From contig NC_091670.1 in assembly GCF_042453785.1 (NCBI RefSeq), positions 37,521,501 to 37,585,500 of the forward strand: 64,000 nucleotides of DNA, read 5' to 3'. Below, piece after piece: positions 2,571 through 62,543 of this stretch. The DNA comes from Malus domestica. Taxonomy: Eukaryota > Streptophyta > Magnoliopsida > Rosales > Rosaceae. Each line of letters begins with the position of its first letter. The stretch's first letter is position 1. The notes beneath the pieces were generated by a model, which had not been told where the DNA came from, did no database searches, and was given only the letters and a program-made list of their open reading frames with translations. The translations under genes and the position numbers were made by a program.

Positions 2571-5500
2571 TTAAGCCGCATCAGAATTCATATTATTATT
2601 GTCGTTGTGAAGAAGATACAGGTGATCACCATCTCGAACAACACTTATGTCATCTATTTCCGCATTTTCTTCATTAACGACTTTTGTAGGTTTGTATCCT
2701 CCGAACTTCTCACCTGCAATGTCATAGAGGGAGACCAACTATGCTGTTACGATATGTTTGATTCTGCTCAAGGTATGTGTTTAACATTCAATTTTGGCTT
2801 TAATCTGTTGAATGTTGTCTAATCTATAAGAACTTTAAATTTAGATTTGTCTAAATGTGTCTTTTTAGGTAAGAAAAAGAAAGCTTACCGGCAACTCTGA
2901 GTAGCTCTTCCATCGAATCAGGTAGGATAATTAACTTCGCAAGCTGCCTCTGCGGTGCACTTCCATTTTGAAAATGCATGTGGATAGTTACTCTCCTGTT
3001 GATTGATCTCATCCGTTCTCCATCAGGGATAGAATTGCTCGGGTAGGACTTAATGGGTACTTTTCTCTGGTGAGAGTGGGAAAATTGGGCACCCTCTTGT
3101 CTTTTGGAATTTCCTTTACAATTCCTGGTTATTTCAGATGTTTCCGGTTCAATAAACTCTATTCTATGTTCATCTGTTCTCCTATTCTCATATATTCGTA
3201 AAAGGTCAGTTATGCTCTTGTTTCCTTGCTGTTGTGCTAGATCTTTCGGCGTCCATCCTCTAGCATCTGGTTTGTTTACGTTTGCTCCTCCTTCCACCAA
3301 AATTTTGACCATTTCCATATGTCCCTGACGAACAGCAGTGTGAAGAGCCGTTTGGCCATCCTCAGCCATCATGCTGACATCCATTGCACATCTCGTTGAA
3401 ATATCAGATCTGCCTATTTCGCTCTTTTTTGTAGCCTCTGAACCTGTAAACAAGTCGTTCCTTGCTTCCTCCATTGATGTTTCTTGAGGTGAGTTGTCTT
3501 TGCATCCAGCGCAAGAACAGCATCCTTCGGTATGTGGATATTCACAGCCCAACCCTTCTTGTTCCTTCAGTTTCTGTAAAGTAGAGTACAGAATATCAGT
3601 CTTTGGAAGAGAAGGGTGGTGTGCATGACTGCATGTACATTTTTTCGAAAACAATTTTGTTCGGTACCAGAAAAATGTTGTTCATGATAATTTGCTCGTC
3701 GTCCTTATTTGCTTCTATGGTGGTCATGAGTGAACTTCTGCGGATTCGTAATATCTGGGAAAGTTCGGTTGTCCGAACGGTGAAGGGCTGTGGCCTATGA
3801 CATAATACTCCGATTTCTCCCAAAGTATCCCCCGCAGTTGCCTTTCGTATAAACTGTTTAGAGAAGTCAAGTCAGATATTAACTCCTACCTGTACTCCGA
3901 TTTCACAGAGCATTGAAATGTTTAATAGTAAGAAGCAGGTTCGCATTTGCGGGATGTCAGAGCCAGTCAACCGAGAGTGTATTTTCGGTCAACGGGCCTC
4001 TCACATCCCGCAAAATGGGATCCCGTTTTTGGAAGGGTCTGTTTACGTATATGTATGCGTGACTTACTTGAGCTTGCCCATCAACATTGGACACCAGATC
4101 CTGCAACCATGAATTTTTCCGATTGAACTCCATGTCAGAAAGCGTTTTTAAGAATGTTAGGAGATTATGTAAGAGGTAAGAGTTAAGCCGGCTCACCGCT
4201 GCACCGGAAACCAGTATGTAAAGATCGGTCGGAGCCTCGTTTTGCAGAATTACATCTTCCTTGGGTGGAAAATACTCTGCATCTATTTCTGAAACCTTAA
4301 TAAGAGAATACATAGTTTTAGCATCTTGTGATAAGCCAAAAATGGTCTGAAAAATCTAAATCCTTGTTAAATTGTCATAAGAAACATGATCACTTTATAA
4401 AGGGCATTTTTATCAAACCAACGCTCCACTCAAAGAGGATATTGACAAATTTTTCATTAATGAAGCCTTGTGCTATGAACGCATAAGCAGGTAAAGAGTA
4501 CATGTGTGGGCAAACTTAAAAACCACTTCTATCGATTTTCAATTTTAAGGATCAAAGCAAGTAGTTATACTAATCTCAAGAATCATTGTAACTAAAAAGC
4601 CGATAAACAATAAAATGTGTAGACACACTATTGTCAACAAACTATCTAATACAGGTGAGCCCTATCATCGAGACCCACTTCTATTAGTGAGAGTGTCGGC
4701 AATGTGGTCCGTTTTGTATCTGAATAACGTTACTCAGTGAGAATAATTATAAGTCAATGTGATGATTTTACCAATTGAAAGAGGAAATCATAAGAAACTC
4801 CTTGAAAGAGGTAGATGCTTTGAACGACGGGGAAGAAGAGATGTTGGGCAATGCTGGAACGAAGGGCTTTCGGGAGACCATTTAAGGTCTCTTGCTGTTT
4901 CAGTCCTTCTGTCTTAAACTTGAGGCATATGTGTGACAACATCTGGTCTTGAATCGTTGGGGGCAAGTCGTTTCTTGCTGCAAATTCTGATGCAGCTCTC
5001 ACTGTGTCCCTCTATCAACACCAAAACCAAAGAAAACACAATTAATATAGGTGTATTATGGGTAGAAACTAGTAGCGTTTTGTCTCGGTGCGGAAAGATT
5101 TTGCCTTATCGCTGAGGTTATACGCTCATGCAAGTATCTCACATTCCTTAACAGCTCACCATTGATCCACCAGCCGTCTGGGTTCCACCCGACCGCAGTG
5201 GAGAAGTTTCAGTGAGTTAGGTCCATCAATGAATAGATAACCGATGAGTGGGAAAAGAATTAGATCCCCCTCAAAAGAATAGAGATAGTGAGACACTCAC
5301 ATGGGTGTATATCACGGGTGACACCCAAGATTTTTTCTTTCGGTTTGAGTAATATATGAAAACTAGAGGTGTATATTTGTCCCATGGAGATTGGGGACAT
5401 ATGACTATTAATAACTAATATTTTTTATGATTTAGGTTAGGGTTTGAAGAAACACTTTCAAAACGTGGGGTAGCAAGAGAGGATACAAAGGAAACATTTC

Positions 5501-7014
5501 CAAGTCTTTCTGCAGGCAATATATGGCCATGGGGACCTTTTTCTAGAACTTTGATTGCGACAGGGGGTTTATTTTGGTCCATTCAGAAGTAGAAACCTCC
5601 CCCGGAAGCTACTGATCTATTTATTTGCTGTACTAAAAACTAAAGAACCGAAAGGAGGAGGACTAAAACTTACAAAGATTCTGGTTCTGCTGGTCCAGTG
5701 AACTACAAGATTTGTCATGTTTCCAATGAGGTAAGATGTCAATCCCAAGTTGAAGAGCATGTAGAAAATATCAAACAGCATCTCTCTAGGGTTCTCAGCA
5801 TGCAGATCTCCATAGCCAGTGGTGGTTAGCGTTGTGATTGACCAGTACATTGAAGTAACATATCTGTTCCAGAGACTATCTTGTTTGAAATCCGGGTACA
5901 CAGCGCCGATCCATGTTCTTTTCGGGTCAGGATACCGATCTGCGATCAGATAGTTGAAGCATCCTGCGCAGTGCACTGCGAAAAGGGTAACCTGAAATTT
6001 GACAGGACACAAGTTTTGATGCCACCCAAGTTCGAATTGGTGAAGAGAAAAATGACAAGAATTGTGATACACTTATGGGGTTTTTCGGGGCTTACAGAAA
6101 TAAGCTTCGTGCAGCGAATCCAGAAGTAGTTGAATCGGATGTCCTTCTCCAGTCTGAAGTCGGCAGAAATCGGTTTGTAAGTGTGTGTGTGTGTATTCTG
6201 ATAGTTTTATGACAATTGGAAAGTTTGGACAAAAAACAAAGGCGAAGGAAGATGGACCTTGCAAAGAGGGAGCTGACTCGTCGGAGGCGCCAGAGGCGGA
6301 GCATATTGAGTACTTTAAACTCAAGTTCGCTGCCGTGATTTGTCAAGAGGAGGCTAATAGACTGAAATGGTGCAGTGGAACACACGTCGAAAAGAAACCA
6401 GGTTGATAAGTACCTGTTTGTTTGTATTGTGTGAAATAAAAAAGGGTTATTTCTTGCACAGAAATCAAAACATATATGTTGGATGTTTTGAACCAGAATG
6501 AAGCCTTTTACGCACCTCATTGCGATTTGCTTTGGATTGTCAACAAGAAGGTAAGAGCGGCTGTCGAGATAGGCAACAAAGAAAGTGAGAATGATGTCAA
6601 TGCCAAAGAAGCCGTTGACAATGTTGTCAATGACGAAAAGAGCATCCCGCTTGTAAGGCAGAAATGCAAACTCAAATGGGCAAATCCACGCTGAGTAGAT
6701 GACTAGAAGAACAAGTAGCATCCCCCAAGCCCTGAAAAATGAGGATCACATAAAGGGCATGAATTGATGAGTTGTAGAAGTTTTACTAACAGTTAACCTT
6801 GGAATAGCAGTGTGGCAAGGCAAGATGATCATCACCTGTAACGAGGATTATATGGCGATATAATGTATTTCCTGAGCTTAGTAGACTGGTTGATTCTGGC
6901 TCCAAGGGAAGGCAGAAGATCAGTAGAGAAGAAGCTGCTCTGAGCAACAGTGTCCATTTGGTATTCATCAATACAGAACCTCCGGAAGAAGTTTTTCGTG
7001 CACGAAAACGTCAT
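2571..7014 (-). CDS. KAT1: KAT1/KAT2-type Shaker inward-rectifying K+ channel
   Basis: Eleven exons join to 770 aa: 7014-6836, 6731-6516, 6413-6258, 6153-6096, 5991-5674, 5011-4772, 4295-4197, 4100-4068, 3853-3668, 3573-2889, 2713-2571. All introns are GT-AG and phases agree. The N-terminus ([23 protein letters not shown]) is KAT-like, not AKT-like. S1-S4 span about 60-185, with voltage-sensor arginines in [11 protein letters not shown]. The pore has TTTGYGD (about 259-265), the K+ selectivity filter. A C-linker and cyclic-nucleotide-binding fold follow (about 390-495; [29 protein letters not shown]). The C-terminal KHA domain runs from RRVTIHMHF to DGDHLYLL. Exon 10 also encodes an ankyrin-like segment (about 566-625: [23 protein letters not shown]) that AtKAT1 largely lacks, making this protein about 90 residues longer. 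KAT channels mediate K+ uptake, notably in guard cells; that role is inferred from the family. Confidence 0.95.
3945..4016. repeat. Hairpin in K+ channel intron 8
   Basis: Two arms of about 18-19 bp face each other: atttgcgggatgtcagag at 3945-3962 and ctctcacatcccgcaaaat at 3998-4016, differing by one base in the stem. The loop contains a second short complementary pair (tcaaccga / tcggtcaa). The whole unit lies in the 214-bp intron between exons 8 and 9. It could be a very small foldback element or a structured intronic RNA. Confidence 0.6.
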
Positions 7015-23536: not shown

Positions 23537-26500
23537 ATGGGTCGGAGCTCCACACTACCCAAATGGGTCTTACCGACTCTGCTTCTTCTCGGTCATTTGG
23601 CAGCTCAAATCTCGGCGGAAGACGGTACGTGTTCTGGTTTCTCTCTGTTTCTCGTTTCCTCTCTTAATTTTTCGAAGCATTTTGCAGTTTTCGTTTTTTT
23701 TTCCGACTCCTGAGATGTAATGACGGACTGTTTAGTATTATTTAGGCTATAAAATTTCATGGGTTTGTCATGAATCATTGAGTTGCATTTAGTTTAGTTA
23801 ATGTCGGACTGTTTAGTTTGGTTAATCACCGCTCTTGATTAGAACTTTGAGATGCTGTTTCACTTTTCCGGTTATCTCAGAGCAAATCGAACTCCGGTAC
23901 TAATCCGAGCTCATTTTTCACTGCTCTGGCTCACCAAAATCACTTTAATTTTCACAAAGTATGACCAATTAGTGTAACTCCCCCGATGCTTCCCGCCAGG
24001 AGAAGTAGAGTGAACTCCGGTCACGAAGGTTTTCACCCCCAAAGGTTCTTAGCTTAACTTTTTTCTCAGTTTCTGCTTTTTGCCTGTATTTTCTTTGATG
24101 CTTTTCCAAAGTTCAAATCTCCGTTGGCTTATTAGTCTAAATGGTCCGGAGTAGAACTCCTCACTTTTAGTTATGTCAATGAAAATCGATAAAATAGTCT
24201 TTGATTTTGTTCACGTAAATTATTTTGATATTTTCGTAAAGTAAATTATTATTGACACTCTAAAAATTTCAATTAGCAGCATTTCAAACTTTCTATAATT
24301 AGAAAGCTTGTTAAAAGTGTAGAATTAGATTTTTGGAGTCCTATTAACAATTCAGCTATATCAATATTCTTATTTAAGTGTGACATGAACAATCATATGA
24401 TAATTTTTATTTAGAAAAATTAATAAAAGTAACTTGAAAACATTAAGTTTTAATGATAAAGATAAAATAAAGGGTAAAATAAATAGTATCAAGATTGGTT
24501 TTTTAATATAAAAATGTGATTTTTCTTTAAAATGAATAATATCGTTAACTTTTCGTTAAAATTCTTTATTTTTTAGTAATATTTTTGTCCAACTAACTTC
24601 TTAACTTAACAAAGATGTTAACATATTTTCACAAAACGATCAGAATGATTATAAATTAAATGATCACTTCTATTAGTTTTTTAAAGATTTAAAGAAAAAA
24701 AATTATGTTAATTTTAAAAACCATTTTAATCAAAAAGCTAATCTCTATTTAAATGTGGTAATGTAGTGTTATTTTTTTATTATATATTTTTGGGTACAGA
24801 TTGCATTTGGTAATTTACAAGGAAGACAGCTATATTTTGCATCAAAACTTTAGGCCTTGTGAAGATTGGTTAAATTAGTAAAATTACTAGGAGGCTAGTT
24901 ACGTTTGCTCTACAGCTGGCTACGTTTTTACCCATTTGTCCGTCACGGAGTAGTTGAAAATGTCTAAATTAACCTTAGTAAACCCGGATCCGCGCCCAAT
25001 TTCTGGCGCATTTTTCCCGTATTTATACAAGGGGACAAAGTGCCTTTCCGTAAAGGTAACTGGCGCTATAAACGAAGTATAGCTGTCCCTTCAGATCACC
25101 ATCCCAAATCGCCACCACCCCACATGGTGTTTGGTGTCAGTAAAAAGAAGGCCCTTTTGTAGGGTCCACGCGCTCAACCCAAAGTTTTTTCCTTTTTCCC
25201 ACATTTTTTTTTAAAATATGCTATCGACGTATTTTTATTTTTCATTCTTATTGTTAATTTTTATTATTTGATTTTTTTTAGTTCATCTGATCTGATGGAT
25301 AAAAGTTTAAAAGTGTTTAAAAAGTAAAAAATAGTGTGCATAGATAGTATACTTTTTTTTAGGAATTTTAACGAAAAGTTCCTGATACTGTGAACTTTAA
25401 TGAAAAGCTATATTTTTACATTAAAAGTTAATTCTGGTACTATTTATTTTACTCTTTATTTAGTTCTTATCGTTTAAATTCAAAATTTTTAACCTATTTT
25501 CATTGGTTTTGTTTTGTTTTGTTTTTTTTTCTTAACCTACGTTTATCCTCATTTATAAAGAAAATTATGTTATTGTGGGCTTCCCCACGTTTGAGGCCCA
25601 TGTATGGATAAAGCAATCCAGAGTAGTCGCTCAATTGAATTGGGAAATTGTAGCAACACAAAAATTGAAGACAGAAAAGCCTTCAAAAAAACATCAATTT
25701 ATTTCCGAAAACAATTTAAAGGTTATTGGAATTGAAAACTACACCTTGAGACCGACATATTTTCTCTAAGTTGTGAAATTATTATTTTCTTTTAGTTTTG
25801 TCTTGGAGATGGCAGGTTCCTTGCTGTCATGTCACGATAGTACAAAATCTCACTGTTTTTTTGTTGTATTTTGGTTTCACATTTGAGAGTCAGGATTTCG
25901 TCGGATCTTCTTTGTAAGAGATTCGTGAATAGTATTGATTTATCGTATATCATGCGATCATAAATTATTTTAAATATTTTTATTTAAAAATAAATATAAA
26001 AATTAATTTTGGGGCAAAGACATACTTGGCTTCTTTATTTAACCCAAGATTAGTGTGATCAACACTTTCTTGTAGTGGTTTGAGGTTTAGGGTTTAGGAT
26101 TTAGGGAAGGAAAATCAATCGATTTAAGGGTCGGATTTCTTATATGGAAAGCACTTTTGTGTGCCTTCTTTAGAAAACCTTATCATTAGAAAACTTTATC
26201 ACTTGAAGTGCTTCATAAACCAGAAAGCACCCAAAAATGGCATTAAAAATCGAGATTTGCTTTGCTTGTAGTTATTTCTATCAACGTTACTTATGTTGCC
26301 TAAATTTGTAGGACATGTCACATGCCTACACTTGGGACGTTACCTGGAGTTGAATCTCAAACTATAAAAATGTTAGCGTCAGTTGTTTGCGTAGTTATGC
26401 ATAATTCACATTGGCAATCAATTAGCCTCAGTGAGCATATCCATGCATAATTCACATGGTTGATGAATATAGCCTACATTTCTAAATCAACGTCGTTTAT

Positions 26501-28118
26501 TGCAGGGCCAGTGCCAAACGGAGATTTTGAACTGACCCCATTAGGCGGCTTTTCAAACGAGGGCATAGTAGACGGACCCGCCGGCATCCCCAACTGGAAA
26601 GCAAACGGCACCGTTGAGCTGGTGGAGTCCGGGCAGAAACAGGGTGGGATGATCCTCATCGTACCGCAAGGTAGACACGCGGTGAGGCTCGGAAACGACG
26701 CCGAAATAAGCCAGCAGGTGAAGGTGGAGAAGGGGTCGATATACTCGGTGACTTTCAGCGCGGCTCGCACGTGCGCACAGCTGGAGTCGCTGAACGTGTC
26801 CGTGCCACCTGCATCGCAGACGATAGACCTGCAGACCTTGTACAACGTGCAGGGGTGGGACCCCTACGCATGGGCCTTCGCGGCGGAGGAGGACAATGCG
26901 ATGTTGGTCTTCAGGAATCCCGGCATGGAGGATGACCCCACCTGTGGGCCCATCATTGATGACGTTGCTATCAAGAAGCTCTTTACCCCTGATAGACCCA
27001 AAGGTATGAATCTTCCCTCCAAAACCGCTTTATTCTTCAACCCTATTGGCCCACATCATAGGATCCGCTTTGTGGGGGCCTGTTTGATGACTTTCAAAGC
27101 TCACGATCCAAAGTTTGACCTAGGTGACAAATCCAAATTTTTTTTTTTTTTTTTTTTTGTAAATTAAGTGAGGGTGGGTTGAACTTAAATAATAGATGCA
27201 GCGAGATGATACTGTGACGGTATCTTATATTAATTATGAATTGTCTTGAAATATAACTTTAATTGATTTCTTACTCTGTTGTAGTACGTATTTTTTATTT
27301 TTTCTTGTTCATCGCATGATTTGTCACGCGACGAGAAAATAACAGGTAAACAAATTTGATCATGTATGATTGATGGGCCCGAGGTTTGTGTTTGAATAGG
27401 GGATTGGGTTAGCGGATGATCATTTGAATGCGTCGTTTAGATTGACAGTCAGAACAATAAATTGCAGTGTGATTCCATCTTACTAAATTAGTGGTCACTA
27501 TTTGCCATATTTTGTGCAGACAATGCAGTGATCAATGGTGATTTTGAGGAAGGACCATGGATGTTCCCAAACATCTCACTCGGAGTCCTGCTCCCCACCA
27601 ACCTCGACGAAGAAACTTCGTCCCTACCTGGTTGGATCGTCGAGTCCAACCGGGCTGTTAGGTACATAGACTCGTACCATTACGCAGTGCCACAAGGAAA
27701 ACGAGCAATTGAATTGCTGTCTGGAAAAGAGGGCATCATTTCCCAAATGGTTGAAACTGCACCAAACAAGCCCTACACCTTGACCTTCTCATTAGGCCAT
27801 GCTAATGACAAATGCAAGCAGCCTCTTGCCGTCATGGCATTCGCCGGCGACCAAGCGCAAAATGTCCATTACGCCCCTAATTCCAACAGTACATTCCAAG
27901 CCGCCGGCGTGAATTTCACGGCCAAGGCTGAGAGGACAAGGATTGCTTTCTACAGTGTGTACTACAATACCAGGACTGATGACATGAGCTCACTTTGTGG
28001 GCCTGTGGTGGATGATGTTCGGGTTTGGTTTTCTGGGTCATGGAGAAATGGGTTTGGCGGGTCGGGCCGGCTGGCGGTTGGGCTTGCTTTCTGGTTGTTT
28101 GTGTGGGTTTTGGTTTAG
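23537..28118 (+). CDS. DUF642 cell-wall protein, GPI-anchored type
   Basis: Three exons (23537-23624, 26506-27003, 27520-28118) give 394 aa. Exon 1 encodes a signal peptide (hydrophobic core LPTLLLLGHLAAQ). Two galactose-binding-like DUF642 domains follow: the first begins at VPNGDFELTP and ends at CGPIIDDVAIKKLF; the second begins at VINGDFEEGPW and ends at CGPVVDDVRVWF. The C-terminal tail is hydrophobic (LAVGLAFWLFVWVLV), as expected for a GPI-anchor signal. Among Arabidopsis DUF642 proteins this fits the At1g29980/At2g34510 pair (from memory). DUF642 proteins are extracellular and have been linked to pectin and pectin methylesterase activity; the exact ligand here is unknown. Intron 1 is about 2.9 kb and carries several small elements. 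Confidence 0.93.
24421..24568 (+). mobile_element. AT-rich dispersed element, family A copy 2
   Basis: Same ordered words as the copy at 21760 with more substitutions (aagttttaatgataaagata, aaataaagggtaaaataaat, aacttttcgttaaaattc). It lies in intron 1 of the DUF642 gene. Confidence 0.65.
25198..25362. mobile_element. Decayed family B-like foldback
   Basis: The outer words (gctatcgacgtatttttat left; aaaaaatagtgtgcatagat right) are imperfect inverted repeats, and the middle (agttcatctgatctgatgga) resembles the centre of the family B elements. Low confidence because of divergence. Confidence 0.4.
25369..25510 (-). mobile_element. AT-rich dispersed element, family A copy 3
   Basis: Reverse-complement copy (ttaacgaaaagttcctgata, atgaaaagctatatttttac) directly following the family B-like foldback in DUF642 intron 1. 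Confidence 0.6.
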
Positions 28119-34626: not shown

Positions 34627-37600
34627 ATGACGTCGTCATCAGCTTATTCTTTCACTCTCCTCCGCCATCTCTCTCCTCTCCAACTCTCTCGCTCCCGCCA
34701 CTGCTCCTCCTCACTTTGCACACCCGTTCGCCGCCGATCCGTTTCGGCCTTTTCGTTTCGGAGTTCCGGTATCCGATTCGATCTTCAGGTTTGTTTTCTG
34801 GCATCTCCGGTTCGTTTCTTATTTTCTGTTTGGTTGCCGAGAAAGTCAACTGTGACGAAAAGCCCTCTCACAGGCCCGTAGTGAAAGGCTTGTTCTAATT
34901 TGTTCTGATTTCATACGTTATCAATTGCAGTTGATAGGGCGGAGAAATGGGCGCCGCTTTTGCTACAGTTCTGTCGATTTCGGGTCTTTTGATTCGGTAA
35001 GCCTCATAGTTTTTGTTTGGTTCATATAAGGGGGTTTGTAATTTAGCTAGATTTCGGTTCCGAATTTGCTTTGGTGCCCTTCTCAAGTTTTGGGTTTGAA
35101 GTGTTTTGTTCTTATTTCGATTTTTTAAACTGAATTGCTATCAAGGGCGCATATATGAATTGCGTTTTTTTTTTTCCTCAGGAATCAGCTGATATAACAC
35201 CACTTGATAATTGGGGGGCCGGACGTGAAGGGTCTACAGGGTACATGATTTATTCCAGCGGCGAAGATAGTGACGGAGAGTTTGTAGTAACCCCCGTTGC
35301 TGATATCGATTTGCCTGCCATCACCGTATCAGCTGATGATGCTAGGGCTGTCACTGCTCACCGGCTTGCAATGCTTGGACGTCAGCGTAAGAAGCACAGG
35401 CAAGTATGCCATCTGTTTATCGCGCATTGCTCAGAGACTCGAAGGAATATAAACTTTTACATATTTAGCTGAAGCGGTTGTGTTTCATAGTTTGAGAGAT
35501 ACTCAAAATCACTTATTTACGTAATTTTATTTCGCCATGAGTTATGATAGATTTCAACAAGTGATTTTAAACATACAAAATTTTACGCTACGATGAGAAG
35601 TAGGTTGAACTACCAATGTATGTGGGTCTTAGTCTTATTGTCGTTTACACTTAATATTTGCAGGATCAGACATGGAGTATTACTCAACATGGGATTGATA
35701 CTGTTCCTAGTGGTGTTACTTTTATATGTGGATTCATGTGCATGGAGGATTGTTAGACTACCCTTGGCACCGTTTCACTTGACCTGCCCCTTTTTCGTTT
35801 CAGCCATTTTAGCCTCTTGTGCGGGATATGTGTGTGTTCCTCTACTCTATGTCTTGAAGATTCGTCAAATTATCAGAAAAGAAGGGCCTGCAAGGCACTC
35901 CTTGAAGAAAAGAACTCCCACGATGGGTGGACTATTTTTTATACCAATTGGTGTAATTGTTGCGAAATTTATTGCCGGTTTTTCTTCCGTTGAAGTTTCT
36001 GGAGCTGCTGCAGCAACTCTTGCATTTGCTGCAATTGGGCTACTTGATGATATCTTAAGCCTCGTCAAGAAACATAACACGGGTTTATCTGCATGGACAA
36101 AAATAATTTTGGAGGTGAATTTACTAATTAGTTTTTCTTTCTCAAACTTTATTCGTGGATTGCTGTTTAATCTTAAGAGTTGATTCAAAGATCTATCAAA
36201 CTTTCTAGTGATATTTATGTTATGCTTATTTTGCAGGTAGCTGTTGGAACCTGGTTTTCGTATTGGTTGCATACTGCAAGTCTATCATCACCCTATGGCA
36301 TGTATATCTTCTTCTAACTATTTTTCTCATGGTAACTCACATTTCTGTTCTTATGATGTTGAATTTAAAAGAAAATAGCAAGTAGTGTTTGGTTCTTATT
36401 TGTTATCTGTCTTCCACAAAATAGGTCTCTTGTAATTTCTCTCTTTTTTGGTTGTTTTTCTTGTACTGTTAAACCTTCCCGTTTTCCAGGGGTCATATAT
36501 TTGTAGCTAATTCTGGATTAAGGTTTTCCTGAATACCCATTAGTACCTCTTCTCTTCCCATTCCAAAATCATCAACTTTCAGATTGCTGAAATATGTCCG
36601 ACAAGGGCTGTGTGATATTCTTAACTGTGAAAGTTGCACTGAGATTGATACCATACACACTAAATTTAGCTTGTCGATTGTGGGACATTTTTTTTAGTAT
36701 TGTCATTACTAAGTTACACTCCTGCTTCTATGTAATAAATGCTTTACTCATGGTGCTTCTACTCAAGTTGATCTTTTATTTCTCAATGCAGGAAACTGTT
36801 GGTTCCTCTACCTGGACTGGGACTTGTGTTCCTGGGAAAATGTTATCTACTGTTGGCTTCATTCTGTTTCGTATCTATGGGAAATGGGGTTAACTTAACA
36901 GATGGTCTTGATGGTCTGGCTGGAGGGTCAGCTGCATTGGCTTTTGTAGGAATGTCGATTGCAGTTCTTCCAATATGTTCTGGTCAGTGTAATTGTCATT
37001 GTGATGTCAGTTTTATGTTGATGTTTAGCTTTTCCAGTTTCGTTGAACCTGTACTAGCGCAATTTCACCAAGGGGTTGGATATTCTGACTTGAGTACTAA
37101 ATTTTTGACTGCCTTATGAAACAGACCTTGCTATATTTGGAGCATCAATGGCAGGAGCTTGTGTTGGTTTTCTTTTGCACAACCGATACAAGGCATCTGT
37201 ATTCATGGGTGATTCCGGATCCCTGGCACTTGGGGGAGGGTTAGCTGCAATGGCTTGTTGCACAGGGATGTTTTTCCCCTTATTTATTTCATCTGGAATC
37301 TTTGTCATCGAAGCCTCGTCAGTTATTTTGCAGGTTTGTTACCTATGCGAATAAACATGTCATGCATTCCTTTGTTCGTTTGATTATGTTTTGTGATTCA
37401 GGCAAATGGATGGATTTCACTCTCGTAATTGGTTTTAGAGTTCAGTTTTTCTCTGAACTGATATCTTAGAGCTCTTTTAGGTACTATACTTCAAGACAAC
37501 CAATCGTTTACATGGAGCTGGGCGCCGTCTCTTCCGAATGGCACCCTTTCATCACCACCTTGAACTATGTGGATTAAAAGAACCGGTTATTGTTGCTGGT

Positions 37601-52683: not shown

Positions 52684-53349
52684 CCACCCCACCCCTCCAC
52701 GAAAACACCATCTCTCTCCAACCTCCGACCGCCGAAACCCTTTGTCATTCACATTGAATGATTTAAATTCACTGAGTTTCAACCTCAAATTGGTTTATCA
52801 CCAAATAGTTGAATTTTTTTGTGAGAAGGAAGAATGAAAAACTAGGAGTCTACATTGGACTAGTTTTTAATGGTTGAGATTAAACAAATTGGTTTAATTA
52901 GATGATATCTCTTAATTGATTTATCATTAGGGTGTTGAAGTATTGCTTCTAAACCATGGTGGGATGAGATTTGAATCTTTGATTGTCGGTGGTAGGGAGG
53001 GTGCATGTGGCATGGGTGGTTGGTTGGTGAGGGGGTGAAGAACATTGGGTGTCTTTAGGTTTTGAGAGGTGGGGATGGATGTCGGAGGTGCCCCACGATG
53101 AGTTTCTTTTTTTTTTTTGGTTTTTTTTTTAAACCCATTTTGTATGTGAGATAAAATAGAATTGTCAAAGTAAAAAAATTATAAGTTTCAATTAGAAAAA
53201 GGAATGAGAATTTTTATTTGGACCCAACTATCCTATCTCTACACCTAATTAAAAAAATTTCTCTACTAAACTTTCAAGTTTGTCCTTAAATAAATAAGAA
53301 TAAGAAAATAAAAGAAAATAAATATTGGTGTTTTTATCTCTATACCCAA
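52684..53349. other. Spacer before the retroelement nest
   Basis: No gene. There is a G/T-rich patch at about 52985-53060 and a T-run at 53107-53130. The right end abuts the CAA-repeat tail of the LINE fragment. Confidence 0.45.
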
Positions 53350-53985
53350 TACAACAACAACAACAACAAAGCCTTTTCCCACTAAGTGGGGTCGGCTATA
53401 TGAATCCTAGAACGCCATTGCGCTCGGTTTTGTGTCATGTCCTCCGTTAGATCCAAGTACTCTACGTCTTTTCTTAGAGTCTCTTCCAAAGTTGTCCTAG
53501 GTCTTCCTCTACCCCTTCGGCCCTGAACCTCTGTCCCGTAGTCACATCTTCGAACCGGAGCGTCAGTCGGCCTTCTTTGCACATGTTCAAAATCACCGGA
53601 GCCGATTTTCTCTCATATTTCCTACAATTTCGGTTACTCCTACTTTACCTCGGATATCCTCATTCCCAATCTTATCCTTTCTCGTGTGCCCACACATCCC
53701 ACGAAGCATCCTCATCTCCGCTACACCCATTTTGTGTACGTGTTGATGTTTCACCACCCAACATTCTGTGCCATACAACATCGCTAGCCTTATTGCCGTC
53801 CTATAAAATTTTCCCTTGAGCTTCAGTGGCCTACGACGGTCACACAACACGCCGGATGCACTCTTTCCATCCAGCTCGTATTCTATGGTTGAGATCTCCA
53901 TCTAATTCTCCGTTCTCTTGCAAGATAGATCCTAGGTAGCGAAAACGATCGCTTTTTGTGAGCTTCGCTAGATTGCTCCGGTCAT
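53350..53985 (-). pseudogene. 5'-truncated RTE-type LINE fragment
   Basis: On the minus strand this reads the last roughly 200 codons of the LINE ORF ([44 protein letters not shown], ending IADPT). It then has a short 3' UTR and a (TTG)n tail, as RTE elements have. The reading frame is broken: a deletion of about 10 bp near 53870 compared with the copy at 58.9 kb, and another shift near 53590. The 5' side stops where the next element begins, near 53985. It cannot encode an active product. Confidence 0.85.
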
Positions 53986-55369
53986 TAGTGTGGATAAGTA
54001 TATAAATGGATAGAGATAGGAAAGCAAACACAAGATGTACGTGGTTCACCCAGATTGGCTACGTCCACGGAATAGAAGAGTTCTCATTAATTGTGAAGGG
54101 TTTACACAAGTACATAGGTTCAAGCTCTCATTTAGTGAGTACAAGTGAATGATTTAGTACAAATGCCATTAGGAAATATTGTGGGAGAATGATCTCGTAA
54201 TCACGAAACTTCTAAGTATCGGAGTGTGGTGTCGTCTTGACTTGCCTTATCTGTCTCATAGGTAGATGTGGCATCTTCTCTGGAAGTACTCTTCCTCCAT
54301 CCAGGGGTGGTATCTTTAACTGGTGGAGATGCACAAGGTAATGTATCAATTTCACTTGAAGCTTACTTGTAGTTTCAGGCTTGGTCAAGCGCGATACAAA
54401 CCAGGTAGTAGGAGTCCCCCAAGTCGCCGAGCTAGGGGGTCTGCTGAAAGAGGTGACAAACAAGGTAAGCAATCAGAGCTCCGACTGATTGTTCACCTTC
54501 TCCCCATCTTGCAGCAGCATGAAGGATAAAGAGAAGAAAAATGAGAAGAGATGATATGAGATACTTTTGCTTTTGAAGAAGTAACTTTCCACAGGCTTAT
54601 TCTTGAACTGAGCTGGAGGGTTTTCTGGTTTCCTCCAGAGTATAAGGCCGACTGAAGAATTTGAGGGTCAAAACAAGTCCATCAAATCTAGAGTACGTTC
54701 CACCCTGCTGATATGGGATACTTTTGCTTTTGACAGAGTAATGAATGTATCGGCACGTGTGCTGTTACGCTTGTCTCCACATGCTTCCTTGTATCCTTCG
54801 CACTTGCCCTATCTGTTCCTCAAGCAGATGCGGAATCTTCCCTGGAAACATAAGATGTTGAAGATGAGTACTCGAGAGCAATGCCAGGTAAGTAATCAGG
54901 TAAGGGGTTCCAGGCAGTCAGTTCCTGGCTGGAAGCTTGATTCCAAGTGCTGACTGATTGCTCTCTTTCTCCTTGTCTTGCAGGTAAAAACAAGGCCAAA
55001 AGAAAAGACAGGGAAAAAGCATGATATGGGATACTCTTGCTTTTAACCCTGATGATATGAGATATTCTTGCTCTAGTATAGCTTGTTTGCAGAGGTATTA
55101 TCGGGGGGAAAGAAAGCTGAATATTTCGAAAGGCTTCGTTGGGAGTGCCCTCTCAGATATGATGAAGGGTTGAGCATTTTTGCAGGTCTGCCTGTCCGTT
55201 GGGGATGGAGGTCGACATATATAGGAGTCTCCCTAACAACAAGTAGTAATGCTATTCCTTTACCCTGCTTGGTCATAGCACGGTAGTGGGAGCTGCCAGT
55301 TTCACATGTTTTAACTCTGTCAGAGCACTTTGAAAAAGTGGTCTGTGGTATCTGGCTCTCGAGATTCGG

Positions 55370-57360
55370 AGAACGATGCCTCTTCGATTTTTGAGAAAGC
55401 AATCATGCTGGGGGTATGACTCTCGAGATTCGGAGAGCAGTGTCTCTTCGATTTTTGAGGAAGTAATCATGTTGGGAGTCTGGCTCTCGAGATTCGGAGG
55501 GCGGTGCCTCTTCGATTTTGGAGCAAGCAATCTTGTTGGGAGTGTTGTCTCGAATGTGAGTAAAGGTTGGGCATGTTTGCTAGTCTACCTTGCCACGAAG
55601 CACAAAGGTTGACACACAGGGACTTTCCAATTATCCAGCAATGGTACTGTTCCTTTACCCTCTCTTCGATTTTGAGAAAGTAGTCATGTTGGGAGTCTGG
55701 CTCTCGAGATTCGGAGGACGGTGCCTCTTCGATTTTGAAGCAAGCAATCTTATTGGGAGTGTTTTCTCGAATGTGAGTAAAGGTTGGGCATGTTTGCTAG
55801 TCTACCTTGCCACGAAGCACAGAGGTTGACACACAGGGACTTTCCAATTATCCAGCAGTGGTACTGTTCCTTTACAGTTGTGGGTAATAATATGGTAGCT
55901 AGACCTTCAAAATTTATGTGTCTAAACTTTTGTTAGTGCTGTTTCTTTGCTATTCTTTTACCTTTCTTGGTCAGAGCGATGTAGTGGGAGCTGCAAGCTT
56001 CACGTGCTCAACTTTGGCAGAGAACTTTGGCAAAGTTATTTGTGGTACCCATGAGCTATTGTTGCGTGTGGGAAGTGGGTGATTGAACAGTAAGATTCAT
56101 GTGCTTTCTACTTCACCAGAAGTCTTCGACAGAATGCCCATAATTTCTGCAAAGCTGAGTGTGCGTGTGACAGGTGCTGACAAGGCTAGAAAAGTAGGTG
56201 CCTCTTCGATTTCTGAGATCGGCCCTCGTGGTCTCTGAGCAGCCCATCTTTTGAGAAAGCGAGCGCCTCTTCGATTGATTCGGAGAACGATGCCTCATCG
56301 ATTTTTGAGAAAGCAATCATGCTGGGGGTCTGGCTCTCGAGATTCGGGGAGCAGTGTCTCTTCGATTTTTGAGAAAGTAATCATGTTGGGAGTCTGGCTC
56401 TCGAGATTCGGAGGGCGGTGCCTCTTCGATTTTGGAGCAAGCAATCTTGTTGGGAGTGTTTTCTCGAATGTGAGTAAAGGTTTGGCATGTTTGCTAGTCT
56501 ACCTTGCCACGAAGCACAGAGGTTGACACACAGGGACTTTCCAATTATCCAGCAATGGTACTGTTCCTTTACCCTCTCTTCGATTTTTAAGAAAGTAGTC
56601 ATGTTGGGAGTCTGGCTCTCGAGATTCGGAGGACGGTGCCTCTTCGATTTTGGAGCAAGCAATCTTATTGGGAGTGTTTTCTCAAATGTGAGTAAAGGTT
56701 GGGCATGTTTGCTAGTCTACCTTGCCACGAAGCACAGAGGTTGACACACAGGGACTTTCCAATTATCCAGCAGTGGTACTGTTCCTTTACCCTTGTGGGT
56801 AATAATATGGTAGCTAGACCTTCAAAATTTATGGGTCTAAACTTTGTTAGTGCTGTTTCTTTGCTATTCTTTTACCCTTCTTGGTCAGAGCGATGTAGTG
56901 GGAGCTGCAAGCTTCACGTGCTCAACTTTGGCAGAGAACTTTGGCAAAGTTATCTGTGGTACCCATGAGCTATTGTTGCGTGTGAGAAGTGGGTGATTGA
57001 ACAGTAAGATTCATGTGTTTTCTACTTCCCCAGAAGTCTTTGACAGAATGCCCATAATTTCCGCAAAACTGAGTGTGCGTGTGACAGGTGCTGACAAGGC
57101 TGGAAAAGGCTGGAAAAGTAGGTGCCTCTTCGATTTCTGAGATCGGCCCTCGTGGTCTCTGGGGAGCCCAGCTTTTGAGAAAGCGAGCGCCTCTTCGATT
57201 TTTGAGATCGGCCTTCGTGGTCTTTGAGCAGCCCAACTTTTGAGAAAGCAAACGCCTCTTCGATTTCTGAGATCAACCCTCGTGATCTCTAAGCTGCCCA
57301 GCTTTTGAGAAAGCAAACGCCTCTTCGATTTCTGAGCAGGCGCCTCTTCGATTTCTGAAG
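55370..57360. repeat. Nested tandem array in the retroelement
   Basis: The motif ctcttcgattt recurs about 17 times at spacings of about 25 to 150 bp, often followed by tgagaaag. Larger units contain gttgggagtctggctctcga, gttgacacacagggactttc and ccaattatccagca. A higher-order unit of about 914 bp is duplicated: gtagtgggagctgcaagctt occurs at 55981 and again at 56895. The array ends about 140 bp upstream of the ORF start. Confidence 0.85.
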
Positions 57361-57497
57361 CTTCGTCGAGTGCAGATTTTTATAGGGGCTGGCATTAAGT
57401 TCCAAAGCACACTTGAATCTCCACCAGTAGAAGCTTCATTCTTGCACTTCTAAGATCTTGATTTGTCCGACCTCTTCTCTCTTCAACACCTTTGAAA

Positions 57498-58172
57498 ATG
57501 TCTGGCCCCTCCGACCGTCGTTTTGACTTGAACCTTGTTGAAGAGGCAGCCCCGCCTTCTCCAGACAACATATGGCGCCCATCCTTCGTCTCCCCTACTG
57601 GTCCTCTTACCGTTGGGGATTCCGTGATGAAGAATGATATGACCGCTGCGGTGGTGGCCAGGAACCTTCTCACTCCCAAAGATAACAGACTACTTTCCAA
57701 ACGGTCTGATGAGTTAGCTGTTAAGGATTCGCTGGCTCTCAGTGTTCAGTGTGCAGGTTCTGTGTCTAATATGGCCCAACGCCTATTTGCTCGAACCCGC
57801 CAAGTTGAATCATTGGCGGCTGAAGTGATGAGTCTCAAACAGGAGATTAGAGGGCTCAAGCATGAGAATAAACAGTTGCACCGGCTCGCACATGACTATG
57901 CTACAAACATGAAGAGGAAGCTTGACCAGATGAAGGAAACTGATGGTCAGGTTTTACTTGATCATCAGAGATTTGTGGGTTTGTTCCAAAGGCATTTATT
58001 GCCTTCGTCTTCTGGGGCTGTACCGCGTAATGAAGCTCCAAATGATCAACCTCTGATGCCTCCTCCTTCTAGGGTTCTGTCCAGTACTGAGGCTCCAAAT
58101 GATCCCCCTCCGGTGCCTTCTCTTTCTGGGGCTCTACCGACTGCTGAGACTTCTCCTAAGCAACCTTTGTGA
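57498..58172 (+). CDS. Element-encoded 224-aa coiled-coil protein
   Basis: An uninterrupted ORF from ATG at 57498 (the preceding in-frame codon TTG is not a start) to TGA. The N-terminus contains RRFDLNLVEE, where DLNL matches the DLN-type EAR repressor motif, possibly by chance. Residues of about 90-148 form a leucine-rich coiled coil (RQVESLAAEVMSLKQEIRGL, HENKQLHRLAHDY). The C-terminus has imperfect Pro-rich repeats (NEAPNDQPLMPPPSRVLSS, TEAPNDPPPVPSLSGALPT). No zinc knuckle, protease or RT is present. I recognise this as a protein common in apple-type repeats, but its function is unknown; a gag-like structural role or a captured host gene are the options. Confidence 0.6.
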   Translation: MSGPSDRRFDLNLVEEAAPPSPDNIWRPSFVSPTGPLTVGDSVMKNDMTAAVVARNLLTPKDNRLLSKRSDELAVKDSLALSVQCAGSVSNMAQRLFARTRQVESLAAEVMSLKQEIRGLKHENKQLHRLAHDYATNMKRKLDQMKETDGQVLLDHQRFVGLFQRHLLPSSSGAVPRNEAPNDQPLMPPPSRVLSSTEAPNDPPPVPSLSGALPTAETSPKQPL

Positions 58173-58432
58173 AGGCTCCCTCTTGTGTGCTTATTTTGAC
58201 TCATGTATATGTACATATTTGTAGCTTATCGGGGATATCAATAAATAAGCTTTCCTTCATTTCAACGTATTGTGTTAAATACACCAAAGCCTTCTTCGCT
58301 AAGTTCTTTGAATTTTCTTTTGTTAAAGCTTGTATGTTGAAGCTTTCTGAGTGGAGCATGTAGGTTGGGGTAGTGTTCCCTTAATTTCCCGAGTGAGGAA
58401 AACTTCTCGGTTGGAGACTTGGAAAATCCAAG

Positions 58433-61400
58433 TCACTGAGTGGGATCGGCTATATAAATCTTAGAACGCCATTGTGCTCGATCCTGTGTCATGTCCTTCG
58501 TTAGATCTAAGTACTCTAAGTCTTTTCTTAGAGTCTCTTCCAAAGTTTTCCTAGGTCTTCCTCTACCCCTTCGGCCCTGAACCTCTGTCCCATAGTCGCA
58601 TCTTCTAATCGGAACGTCAGTAGGCCTTCTTTGCACATGTCCAAACCACCGTAACCGATTTTCTCTCATCTTTCCTTCAATTTCGGCTACTCCTACTTTA
58701 CCCCGGATATCCTCATTCCTAATCTTATCATTTCTCGTGTGCCCACACATCCAACGAAGCATCCTCATCTCCGCTACACTCATTTTGTGTACGTGTTGAT
58801 GTTTCACCGCCCAACATTCTGTGCCATACAGCATCGCCGGCCTTATTGCCGTCCTATAAAATTTTCCCTTGAGCTTCAGTGGCATACGGCGGTCACACAA
58901 CACGCCGGATGCACTCTTCCACTTCATCCATCCAGCTTGTATTCTATGGTTGAGATCTCCATCTAATTCTCCGTTCTTTTGCAAGATAGATCCTAGGTAA
59001 CGAAAACGGTCGCTCTTTGGTATTTCTTGATCTCCGATCCTCACCCCTAACTCGTTTTGGCCTCCATTTGCACTGAACTTGCACTCCATATATTCTGTCT
59101 TTGATCGGCTTAGGCGAAGACCTTTAGATTCCAACACTTCTCTCCAAAGGTTAAGCTTTGCATTTACCCCTTCCTGAGTTTCATCTATCAACACTATATC
59201 GTCTGCGAAAAGCATACACCAAGGAATATCATCTTGAATATGTCGTGTTAACTCATCCATTACCAACGCAAAAAGGTAAGGACTTAAGGATGAGCCTTGA
59301 TGTAATCCTACAGTTATGGGAAAGCTTTCGGTTTGTCCTTCATGAGTTCTTACGGCAGTCTTTGCTCCTTCATACATATCCTTTATAGCTTGGATATATG
59401 CTACTCGTACTCCTTTCTTCTCTAAAATCCTCCAAAGAATGTCTCTTGGGACCCTATCATACGCTTTTTCCAAATCTATAAAGACCATGTGTAAATCCTT
59501 TTTCCCATCTCTATATCTTTCCATCAATCTTCGTAAGAGATAGATTGCCTCCATGGTTGAGCGCCCTGGCATGAACCCAAATTGGTTGTCCGAAACCCGT
59601 GTCTCTTGCCTCAATCTATGCTCAATGACTCTCTCCCAGAGCTTCATTGTATGACTCATTAGCTTAATACCCCTATAGTTCATGCAATTTTGTACGTCGC
59701 CCTTATTCTTGTAGATAGGCACCAAAGTGCTCATTCGCCACTCATTTGGCATCTTCTTCGTTTTCAAAATCCTATTGAAAAGGTCAGTGAGCCATGTTAT
59801 ACCTGTCTCTCCCAAAAGTTTCCACACTTCGATTGGTATATCGTCTGGGCCTATTGCTTTTTTATGCTTCATCTTCTTCAAAGCTACAACCACTTCTTCC
59901 TTCCGGATTCGACGATAAAAAGAGTAGTTTCTACACTCTTCTGAGTTACTCAACTCCCCTAAAGAAGCACTCATTTCATGTCCTTCATTGAAAAGATTAT
60001 GAAAATAACCTCTCCATCTGTCTTTAACCGCGTTCTCTGTAGCAAGAACATTTCCATCCTCATCCTTGATGCACCTCACTTGGTTTAGGTCCCTTGTCTT
60101 CTTTTCCCTTGCTCTAGATAGTTTATAGATATCCAACTCTCCTTCTTTGGTATCTAGTCGTTTATACATATCGTCGTAAGCCGCTAACTTAGCTTCTCTG
60201 ACAGCTTTCTTCGCCTCTTGCTTCGCTTTTCTATACCTTTCACCATTTTCATCAGTCCTCTCCTTGTATAAGGCTTTACAACATTCCTTCTTAGCCTTCA
60301 CCTTTGTTTGTACCTCCTCATTCCACCACCAAGATTCCTTTTGGTGTGGGGCAAAGCCCTTGGACTCTCCTAATACCTCTTTTGCTACTTTTCGGATACA
60401 ACTAGCCATGGAATCCCACATTTGGCTAGCTTCCCCCTCTCTATCCCACACACATTGGGTGATTACCTTCTCTTTGAAAATGGCTTGTTTTTCTTCTTTT
60501 AGATTCCACCATCTAGTCCTTGGGCACTTCCAAGTCTTGTTCTTTTGTCTTACTCTTTTGATATGTACATCCATCACCAACAAGCGATGTTGATTAGCCA
60601 CGCTCTCTCCTGGTATAACTTTGCAATCCTTACAAGTTATACGATCCCCTTTCCTCATTAGAAGAAAATCTATTTGTGTTTTTGACGACCCACTCTTGTA
60701 GGTGATCACATGTTCTTCTCTCTTCTTAAAGAAGGTGTTGGCTAAGAAGAGATCATATGCCATTGCAAAATCCAAGATAGCTTCCCCATCCTCGTTTCTC
60801 TCCCCAAAACCATGGCCACCATGAAAACCTCCATAGTTGCCTGTCTCCCTGCCCACGTGTCCATTTAAATCTCCTCCTATAAATAACTTCTCCGTCTGAG
60901 CAATTCCTTGCACCAAGTCTCCAAGATCTTCCCAAAATTTCTCCTTCGAACTCGTATCCAACCCTACTTGAGGTGCGTACGCACTAATCACATTGATAAG
61001 TTCTTGTCCTATTACAATCTTGATTGCCATGATTCTATCTCCTACCCTCTTGACATCTACAACATCTTGTACCAAGGTCTTGTCCACGATGATGCCAACA
61101 CCGTTTCTCGTTCTATTTGTGCCCGAATACCAAAGTTTAAACCCTGAGTTTTCTAGATCCTTTGCCTTACTACCAACCCACTTAGTTTCTTGTAGGCACA
61201 TAATATTTATCCTTCTCCTCACCATAACTTCCACTACTTCCATAGATTTTCCCGTTAAGGTTCCTATATTCCACGTTCCTAAACGCATTTTGCTCTCTTG
61301 AACTCTACCCTTCTGTCCTAGCTTCTTCACCCTCCCCCGTCTAATAGGATCAAAGTACTTCTTTTGTGTGTCCCGGGTAAAGTTGATAGGAGCATATGCT

Positions 61401-61591
61401 CCCAAACAACTTTGAGTGGAGTCGTTCGAAAAGAAGTTTCTATGGCCCCCTTGCTCATTTAACACTGCATCCGGGTGCCGATGGAGATACAGCGACCCTT
61501 GCTCACTTATCACTGTGCTCAGGCCACACAGCGCGCCACTTACGGGTGACGCCCTAGCTTTAGCGCGATTTTGTTCTGGATTCATTTTCAT
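58433..61591 (-). CDS. LINE ORF: AP-like endonuclease plus reverse transcriptase
   Basis: The 1052-aa ORF has no stop or frameshift. Residues of about 1-100 are a leader region. An endonuclease/exonuclease/phosphatase domain starts at [13 protein letters not shown], with catalytic-type blocks [15 protein letters not shown] and the C-terminal [11 protein letters not shown] linker rich in Lys/Glu follows. The reverse transcriptase shows [60 protein letters not shown] and the catalytic FADDIVLI. The C-terminal part ([28 protein letters not shown]) matches the RTE family. Domain order and the single ORF support RTE, not L1. It may still be competent for target-primed reverse transcription; activity was not tested. 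Confidence 0.92.
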
Positions 61592-61664
61592 AAGGATTCG
61601 ACGTGATCATGGAGTGCCGGCTGTCGACTACCTGACGCCCTCCCCCTCCTCCTTTATCCGGGCT
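58433..61664 (-). mobile_element. RTE-clade LINE, near full length
   Basis: The element has one long ORF and a 5' leader of about 70 bp (61592-61664), which reads agcccggataaaggaggag and ends just before the start codon. The 3' end is unusual: instead of the short UTR with a (TTG)n tail seen in the fragment at 53350, it stops at cccactcagtg and joins the 3' flank of the neighbouring element. The leader is also about 30 bp shorter than the copy in LARP6 intron 2, so the 5' terminus here is slightly truncated. Confidence 0.88.
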
Positions 61665-62543
61665 CCTCCATTATTTCCTGCGAAACACACCCAAATGACA
61701 ACAAAATATGCTCCTAAGTTCATCAACAAGTAAGCTTTCTAGAAACCCGTGTTGCATGAAACCCTTAGCGGCCCTTATTTATAATTTCAGTGGAGAAAAC
61801 TTATTACTAATTCGTTGGACATGAAACAAATTCCTGCAATATGAGACAAAAAGCTTCCATATCAGTGTCTATTTAGAAGAGATAGCAATAAGGGTTTCTA
61901 GCAAGCTGACTTGTTAGTTTTAATAATTTCTGCAAGTAGCCAACTCTCAGATAATGGTTCAAACAAGCAAACATATAAGCCGAAAACCTATGCTGAAATT
62001 ATAAGTGAGGGCTGATAAGGGTTTCTAGCAAGCTAACTCGTTGATGAACTCGAGAGAATATTTTGCTGTTATTTGGGTGGGTTTTGTTGGAAATAATGGA
62101 GAAGTGCATTGGTGTGCCAGTTTTGGAGTTATGGGGTGTAGAGATAAAAACACTAATGTGTATTTTATTTTCTTTTCTTATTCTTATTTATTTAAGGGTA
62201 AACTTGGAAGTTTGGTAAATAAAACTTGTTAGTTGGGTGTAGAGATAAGATAACTGGGAAAAAATAAAATTTTATGAGAGGAATTTTGATTTCAATAAAA
62301 TTTAGAAAAATGAACGAAAAGTCCAAAAAAACTTTAATTTTAATGAAAAATGACAAATAAATAGTATCAAATAAGATAAAAATGTAATTTTTCGTTAGAA
62401 GTAATATTTACTTAAAAGTTAAAACTCCCATAAAATTCCCCAAACTGTGTGTACCCACCCAAACCAACCAGATTCCCCATCCTTTCTCCCTCCTCTCTTG
62501 ACACACAGGGGCACAGTAGAACTTCTGCAGACTGTAGTGATCG
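61665..62543. other. Upstream flank of UreG
   Basis: The direct repeat gataagggtttctagcaagct occurs near 61888 and 62017, with a related word near 61734. A diverged family A element is at 62308-62431. No TATA box could be placed with confidence upstream of the UreG start. Confidence 0.45.
62308..62431 (+). mobile_element. AT-rich dispersed element, family A copy 6 (diverged)
   Basis: Words aatagtatcaaataagataa and tgtaatttttcgttagaagt keep the family order but are eroded. It lies about 110 bp upstream of the UreG start codon. Confidence 0.4.

Follow-up and report, generated by a model that had tools for sequence, protein, structure and literature searches.

An antisense coiled-coil protein gene carried by a LINE family of apple, and its probable origin in an LTR-retrotransposon-like family

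Elements of the Retand lineage of Ty3/gypsy retrotransposons regularly carry antisense open reading frames (ORFs) between pol and the 3' long terminal repeat (LTR), and about half of them have repeat arrays in the same interval (PMC11963269; PMC7264820). Most clusters of these antisense ORFs encode TRP28 and some encode Smc-type domains; a regulatory role has been proposed for them, and the roles of antisense accessory proteins in plant retrotransposons are given there as still undetermined (PMC7264820, PMC11963269). Chimeric retrogenes made by LINEs were reported from Magnaporthe in a work whose title names 'double template jumps' (PMC2104539). HODOR (KX869746), an LTR element of 9,716 bp, is present in many copies in apple and pear (PMC13334179, PMC6901071, PMC8558331). 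Searches of a limited literature collection, read by title or abstract opening, brought up no case of an antisense gene captured by a LINE.

We analysed a stretch of 64,000 nucleotides of the apple genome (the window), in which a gene for a 224-aa protein lies within a repeat. This gene resembles the aORF-3R genes of the Retand lineage, for example gene23 of maize Grande, in probably being antisense to an LTR element (here a presumed one), in having its own promoter-like box and repeat arrays nearby, and in encoding a protein outside gag-pol. It differs from them in that it is carried by a LINE and that its protein has no match to the TRP28 domain (PF04195) in Pfam-A. Because of this missing match, we do not class the protein as a Retand-type member, and the likeness is one of layout.

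The initial annotation had delimited the repeat as 53986..58432, an element without reverse transcriptase. The conserved unit turned out to be 53351-61664, which includes a reverse transcriptase/endonuclease ORF. Its parts are the following:

53351..61664, minus strand: repeat unit, a LINE whose 3' end, made of AAC repeats as read on the plus strand, is at 53351, delimited by copies fetched from the same genome
58433..61591, minus strand: LINE ORF of 1052 aa with endonuclease and reverse transcriptase (Pfam RVT_1, 1.6e-36; Exo_endo_phos, 2e-9)
53351..53959, minus strand: second, partial LINE 3' end, made of a C-terminal coding remnant and the 3' tail, with blocks that match 58434-59019 at 91-94% identity
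53960..58432, plus strand: module with the gene, presumably captured, antisense to the LINE, delimited by copy alignments

The gene is placed in the 3' part of the LINE, in antisense, between the LINE ORF and the second partial LINE 3' end. The left junction of the module is near 53959/53960, and the right one falls on the sequence CA(C/T)TGAGTGG. For this comparison, 20 regions were fetched, picked from or beside protein-search hits (of 10,271 candidates only the best 150 were scored, all of them 100% identical and stop-free). Each of the 20 regions crosses at least one of the borders 53986 and 58432 into LINE sequence. The left end was found at 53350-53354 wherever it was included, with two exceptions: in L028 the similarity begins only at 53639, and L010 is truncated by the limit of the fetched region. 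Nine copies have their right end at 61664, and in others its position varies (5' truncation). Past 61664, the same 32 extra bases are present in six of the seven full-length copies displayed, the seventh (L013) having a close variant; the window copy is 32 nt shorter at its 5' end than the full-length copies. Both ends were available for 14 copies. Nine of these have clear target-site duplications of 12-23 nt, located at the end or 1 nt from it; those of L013 and L022 are weaker, and L018, L019 and L021 have none. The LINE ORF is open in seven of the nine full-length ORFs compared, that of the window being one of the seven. The endonuclease-reverse transcriptase ORF, the fixed 3' end, the variable 5' truncation and the target-site duplications establish that the carrier is a LINE; from the style of its sequence, we take it to belong to the RTE clade. 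With plant LINEs of this presumed type it shares the endonuclease and reverse transcriptase in one ORF, the fixed short-repeat 3' end, the 5' truncation and the target-site duplications; it differs from them by a 4.5-kb piece of foreign DNA, in which the constrained antisense gene lies, and by an additional partial 3' end.

A genome-wide copy count, proposed in the initial annotation, was carried out with two tags, neither of them restricted to LINEs by design. Counting exact matches only, a 40-mer of the left part of the module occurs at 1,792 places in the genome and a 20-mer of the gene 3' UTR at 1,910. The 40-mer sample consisted of 20 of the first 22 listed places on C1 (two already in the set were omitted), and the LINE 3' end is present on the left in 19 of these 20 copies, the exception being L041. 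The 20-mer sample consisted of the first 40 listed places on C1, of which 36 continue past 58443 into LINE sequence, while L053, L073, L074 and L080 stop before this position. Since the tag must match exactly, such samples lean to younger copies. L073 and L074, which are 41 kb apart, have the same end base (58363) and the same flank, so that a single insertion seems to have been duplicated locally.

The origin of the module was approached through relatives outside the LINE. A 21-mer at the module left end has 3,538 matches in the genome. Among 100 listed matches, 28 had a listed 40-mer less than 300 bases away, 25 had a listed 20-mer in the arrangement of the gene, and 64 had neither tag. From the first nine places in the list, eight (L090-L097) were fetched; the one omitted, C1:1727489, is near the sampled L049. 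All eight begin with TGTTGATGCAC or a close variant of it, about 50-60 nt to the left of the LINE junction, and in every one of them the left end is devoid of the LINE 3' end. The segment held in common is the following:

53955..54196, minus strand: module part common to the non-LINE family (full range in seven of the eight loci, shorter in the eighth), probably the 3' end of an LTR

Further to the left, four of the eight loci have a common sequence which, read on the other strand, gives a putative primer-binding site of a tRNA-matching type (TGGCGCC...); the other four differ. No reverse transcriptase of the donor was seen. L091 and L092 form a pair on the same strand, 8.3 kb apart, with one end of each kind. 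Two kinds of end and such a pair are as expected of two LTRs, the element running against the gene. An older relative (L041/L089), with no LINE on either side, has a protein region that is 82% identical and contains three stops. Past 58443 it keeps a sequence of its own, and the LINE copies switch at CA(C/T)TGAGTGG, which is common to both. L089 is the one non-LINE relative for which the gene region was read, and part of its left region is repeated after the gene. The 4.5-kb module therefore probably came from an LTR-retrotransposon-like family, and the relatives seen are members of such a family; the host origin suggested earlier (a captured host gene) was not borne out. HODOR, as an abundant LTR element of this plant group, is a possible donor. 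On the reverse strand of L089, the stretch of about 1 kb that follows position 3690, beyond the older gene copy, abounds in GTGAAGCTTTTGTGGGTCAAGC-like repeats.

Segment 53989-58435 reads TG...CA, which would suit a complete non-autonomous LTR-type element (a solo LTR) merely nested in LINEs. However, no 5-nt duplication could be read by eye at the 53989/58435 ends, the breakpoints are crossed into LINE sequence by all 20 protein-hit regions (at least one breakpoint each) and, on the left, by 19 of the 20 tag-sampled copies, and the donor left end lies some 50-60 nt further out. Given the LINE-crossing copies and the position of the donor end, this reading was dropped as extremely improbable.

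The gene and its protein have the following features:

57498..58172, plus strand: gene of the 224-aa protein, a stop-free ATG ORF
57381..57386, plus strand: TATA-like box (TATAGG), a consensus match only
58240..58245, plus strand: AATAAA, a poly(A)-signal-like hexamer, by sequence match
55363..57330, plus strand: arrays of repeats, both tandem and dispersed, with spacings of 914, 217 and 65 nt, 5' of the gene
57522..57536, plus strand: FDLNL motif, aa 9-13, EAR-like, intact in 37 of 40 sampled copies
57675..57998, plus strand: predicted long helix, aa 60-167, from a single-sequence AlphaFold2 model
57999..58169, plus strand: Pro-rich repeated tail, aa 168-224, three 57-nt units, with no constraint detected

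Most of the earlier description of the gene was confirmed here, namely the intact 224-aa ORF, the promoter-like sequence and poly(A)-signal-like hexamer, the DLN-type motif, long predicted helix and repeated Pro-rich tail, and the repeat-borne character of a coiled-coil-like protein that matches no gag or transposase in Pfam-A. Among 1000 Markov sequences made from the segment, an ATG ORF of at least the 224-aa length was obtained in 1, 17 and 18 cases (order-1, order-2 and order-3, respectively); taken alone, ORF length is suggestive of a real gene. The 3-base periodicity of the ORF was equalled by none of 634 windows of the 64-kb sequence. In the arrays 5' of the gene, 55363-57200 consists of two adjacent copies, about 96% identical, of a block of about 914 nt. 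Breaks in the alignments of L013, L015, L020 and L022 suggest that the number of inner repeats varies between copies.

The EAR consensus is (L/F)DLN(L/F)xP. The FDLNL of the 224-aa protein is without the P of this consensus, and the relative L089 has FDLNF; the motif may recruit TOPLESS. AlphaFold2, run on the single sequence, predicted helices at aa 44-56 and 60-167, with aa 1-43 and the tail devoid of structure (mean pLDDT 70.3 overall; block means of 89-98 at aa 81-160, lower elsewhere). A bZIP domain was considered and rejected: the N-x7-R signature is found, but leucines 106, 113, 120 and 127, in a reading by eye, are out of phase with it. The Pfam-A search returned weak matches only, mostly to the coiled-coil part and all under the curated cut-offs, and no gag, capsid, zinc-knuckle or transposase match. 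Nothing beyond weak matches came from a PDB sequence search, no relative was confirmed in the viral and prokaryote collections searched with the protein, and a 37-base pattern of the module had no match in viral contigs. A coiled-coil-like protein of repeat origin might be an unusual gag. This is very unlikely, considering that the Pfam-A search gave no gag, zinc-knuckle or capsid match and that the gene is antisense to the LINE and, presumably, to the LTR element as well.

Selection on the ORF was examined in the 40 copies of the 20-mer sample, whose tag is non-coding and lies outside the ORF. All 40 span the ORF; the first 19 ORF copies, a biased set chosen through protein identity (N = 0), were excluded from the count. 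A stop or indel is present in seven of the 40 copies and absent from the other 33. Changes private to one copy comprise 94 nonsynonymous (three of them stops) and 30 synonymous, a ratio of 3.1, equal to the neutral site ratio of 509:163 (3.1:1). For changes found in at least two copies, which include likely repeated C-to-T changes among those counted in two, the numbers are 25 nonsynonymous (one stop) and 30 synonymous (Fisher test against private changes, P = 1.3e-4), and for those in at least three copies, 7 and 17 (P = 2e-5). Kinship was handled in the tree count only: with L089 as out-group, internal branches have 16 nonsynonymous and 29 synonymous changes, compared to 116 and 48 on terminal branches (P = 2.4e-5), and the L089 branch itself is near neutral (39:16). 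Variants present in at least three copies, window copy included, number 8, 0 and 16 at codon positions 1, 2 and 3 (224 sites each); outside the ORF there are 19 at 260 sites in the 3' UTR and 7 at 142 in the 5' flank. Constraint is less clear at codon position 1 than at position 2. When only the 36 LINE-side copies were counted, private changes were 92:32 and shared ones 20:25 (P = 4.5e-4). In the same copies, the difference was marked for aa 1-167 (60:23 compared to 6:19, P = 3.4e-5), and constraint was not detected in the Pro-rich tail (32:9 compared to 14:6, P = 0.54).

These counts demonstrate purifying selection on aa 1-167 in the shared, or lineage, changes and neutral decay in the private ones. 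A dN/dS near 1 across copies, which the initial annotation would have read as no selection on the protein, is therefore observed for private changes only, whereas shared changes are constrained. As the private ratio is neutral and the shared ratio low, the protein was constrained during the spread of the LINE family, and single copies decayed afterwards. The LINE ORF, in 14 copies obtained via protein search (window included), is likewise constrained, with 57:62 single and 11:9 shared changes for a neutral ratio of 3.9.

Two other explanations of this pattern were weighed. The gene might be an inert passenger in the 3' part of the LINE, the apparent constraint resulting from a few source copies. 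The neutral private changes (94:30) and the stops or indels in 7 of 40 copies are in keeping with this, but a passenger would give an internal-branch ratio near 3, where 16:29 was found, and codon position 2 has no variant shared by at least three copies at 224 sites, compared to 19 at 260 sites in the 3' UTR. We consider it improbable. The main rival is selection at the host level, on one or a few domesticated copies that act as the LINE source, so that the constraint would belong to a host gene and not to the element. A constrained source locus would indeed confine constraint to the shared changes, as observed. However, no unique host locus was noticed among the copies examined, which did not amount to a systematic search, and the shared variants are spread over several subclades, so that several constrained sources would be needed. 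Selection at the host level is rather unlikely, if less so than an inert passenger.

The explanation that we favour, with moderate confidence, is that an accessory gene of an LTR-retrotransposon-like family was captured and now travels inside an RTE-type LINE. The chimera may have arisen once, if reverse transcription of the LINE 3' end jumped to antisense RNA of the donor element, and then, in a second jump at a microhomology, onto LINE ORF RNA. The order of the parts, LINE ORF, reversed donor piece and LINE 3' end, fits template jumps in LINE reverse transcription. The Magnaporthe chimeras similarly fuse pieces of different origin as such jumps would give; they are called pseudogenes in the title of that work (PMC2104539), whereas the chimera in apple has been amplified into a family and has open ORFs. 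The 224-aa gene would be transcribed from its own putative promoter and translated. Its coiled-coil product would probably be nuclear and could recruit TOPLESS through FDLNL. As a trans-acting regulator or anti-silencing factor, it might maintain the expression of source copies, and amplification would then continue only in lineages whose gene is intact. Several points count against this explanation. Binding in cis to the RNA of its own LINE is impossible for an antisense product, the protein matches no functional domain, and FDLNL is without the P of the EAR consensus. The exact tags favour younger copies, L089 has three stops and a near-neutral branch, and constraint at codon position 1 is the less clear. 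The surprise is precisely that a LINE should retain an antisense gene with no possible cis service to its own RNA.

A bolder reading, which we advance tentatively and hold to be less probable, is that the LINE took over an antisense regulatory gene of an LTR retrotransposon and is now dependent on it, the FDLNL coiled-coil protein influencing host chromatin or silencing in trans, and family-level selection having maintained it. If so, an accessory function was passed by gene transfer between two classes of retroelement, one element having acquired a gene that belonged to another class. An accessory protein that has seemingly moved to an unrelated retroelement and been kept there by selection would have a role separable from gag-pol-specific steps. 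A testable consequence is that whatever the accessory protein does should benefit the LINE too.

Some further elements of the window were noted. Host gene parts are found at 2854-6721 on the minus strand (ion-channel exons with ankyrin repeats and a KHA domain), at 26460-28115 on the plus strand (DUF642 protein) and at 35593-36180 on the plus strand (weak MraY signature match, 2.2e-4). A MITE-like inverted repeat at 61663-62104, with arms of 86 and 39 nt that are 84-85% complementary, adjoins the LINE 5' end at 61664. Inverted arms of 143 nt (53209-53351 and 62130-62272, 83% complementary) flank the LINE and, as they lie on both sides of it, the LINE was probably inserted inside another MITE-like palindrome.
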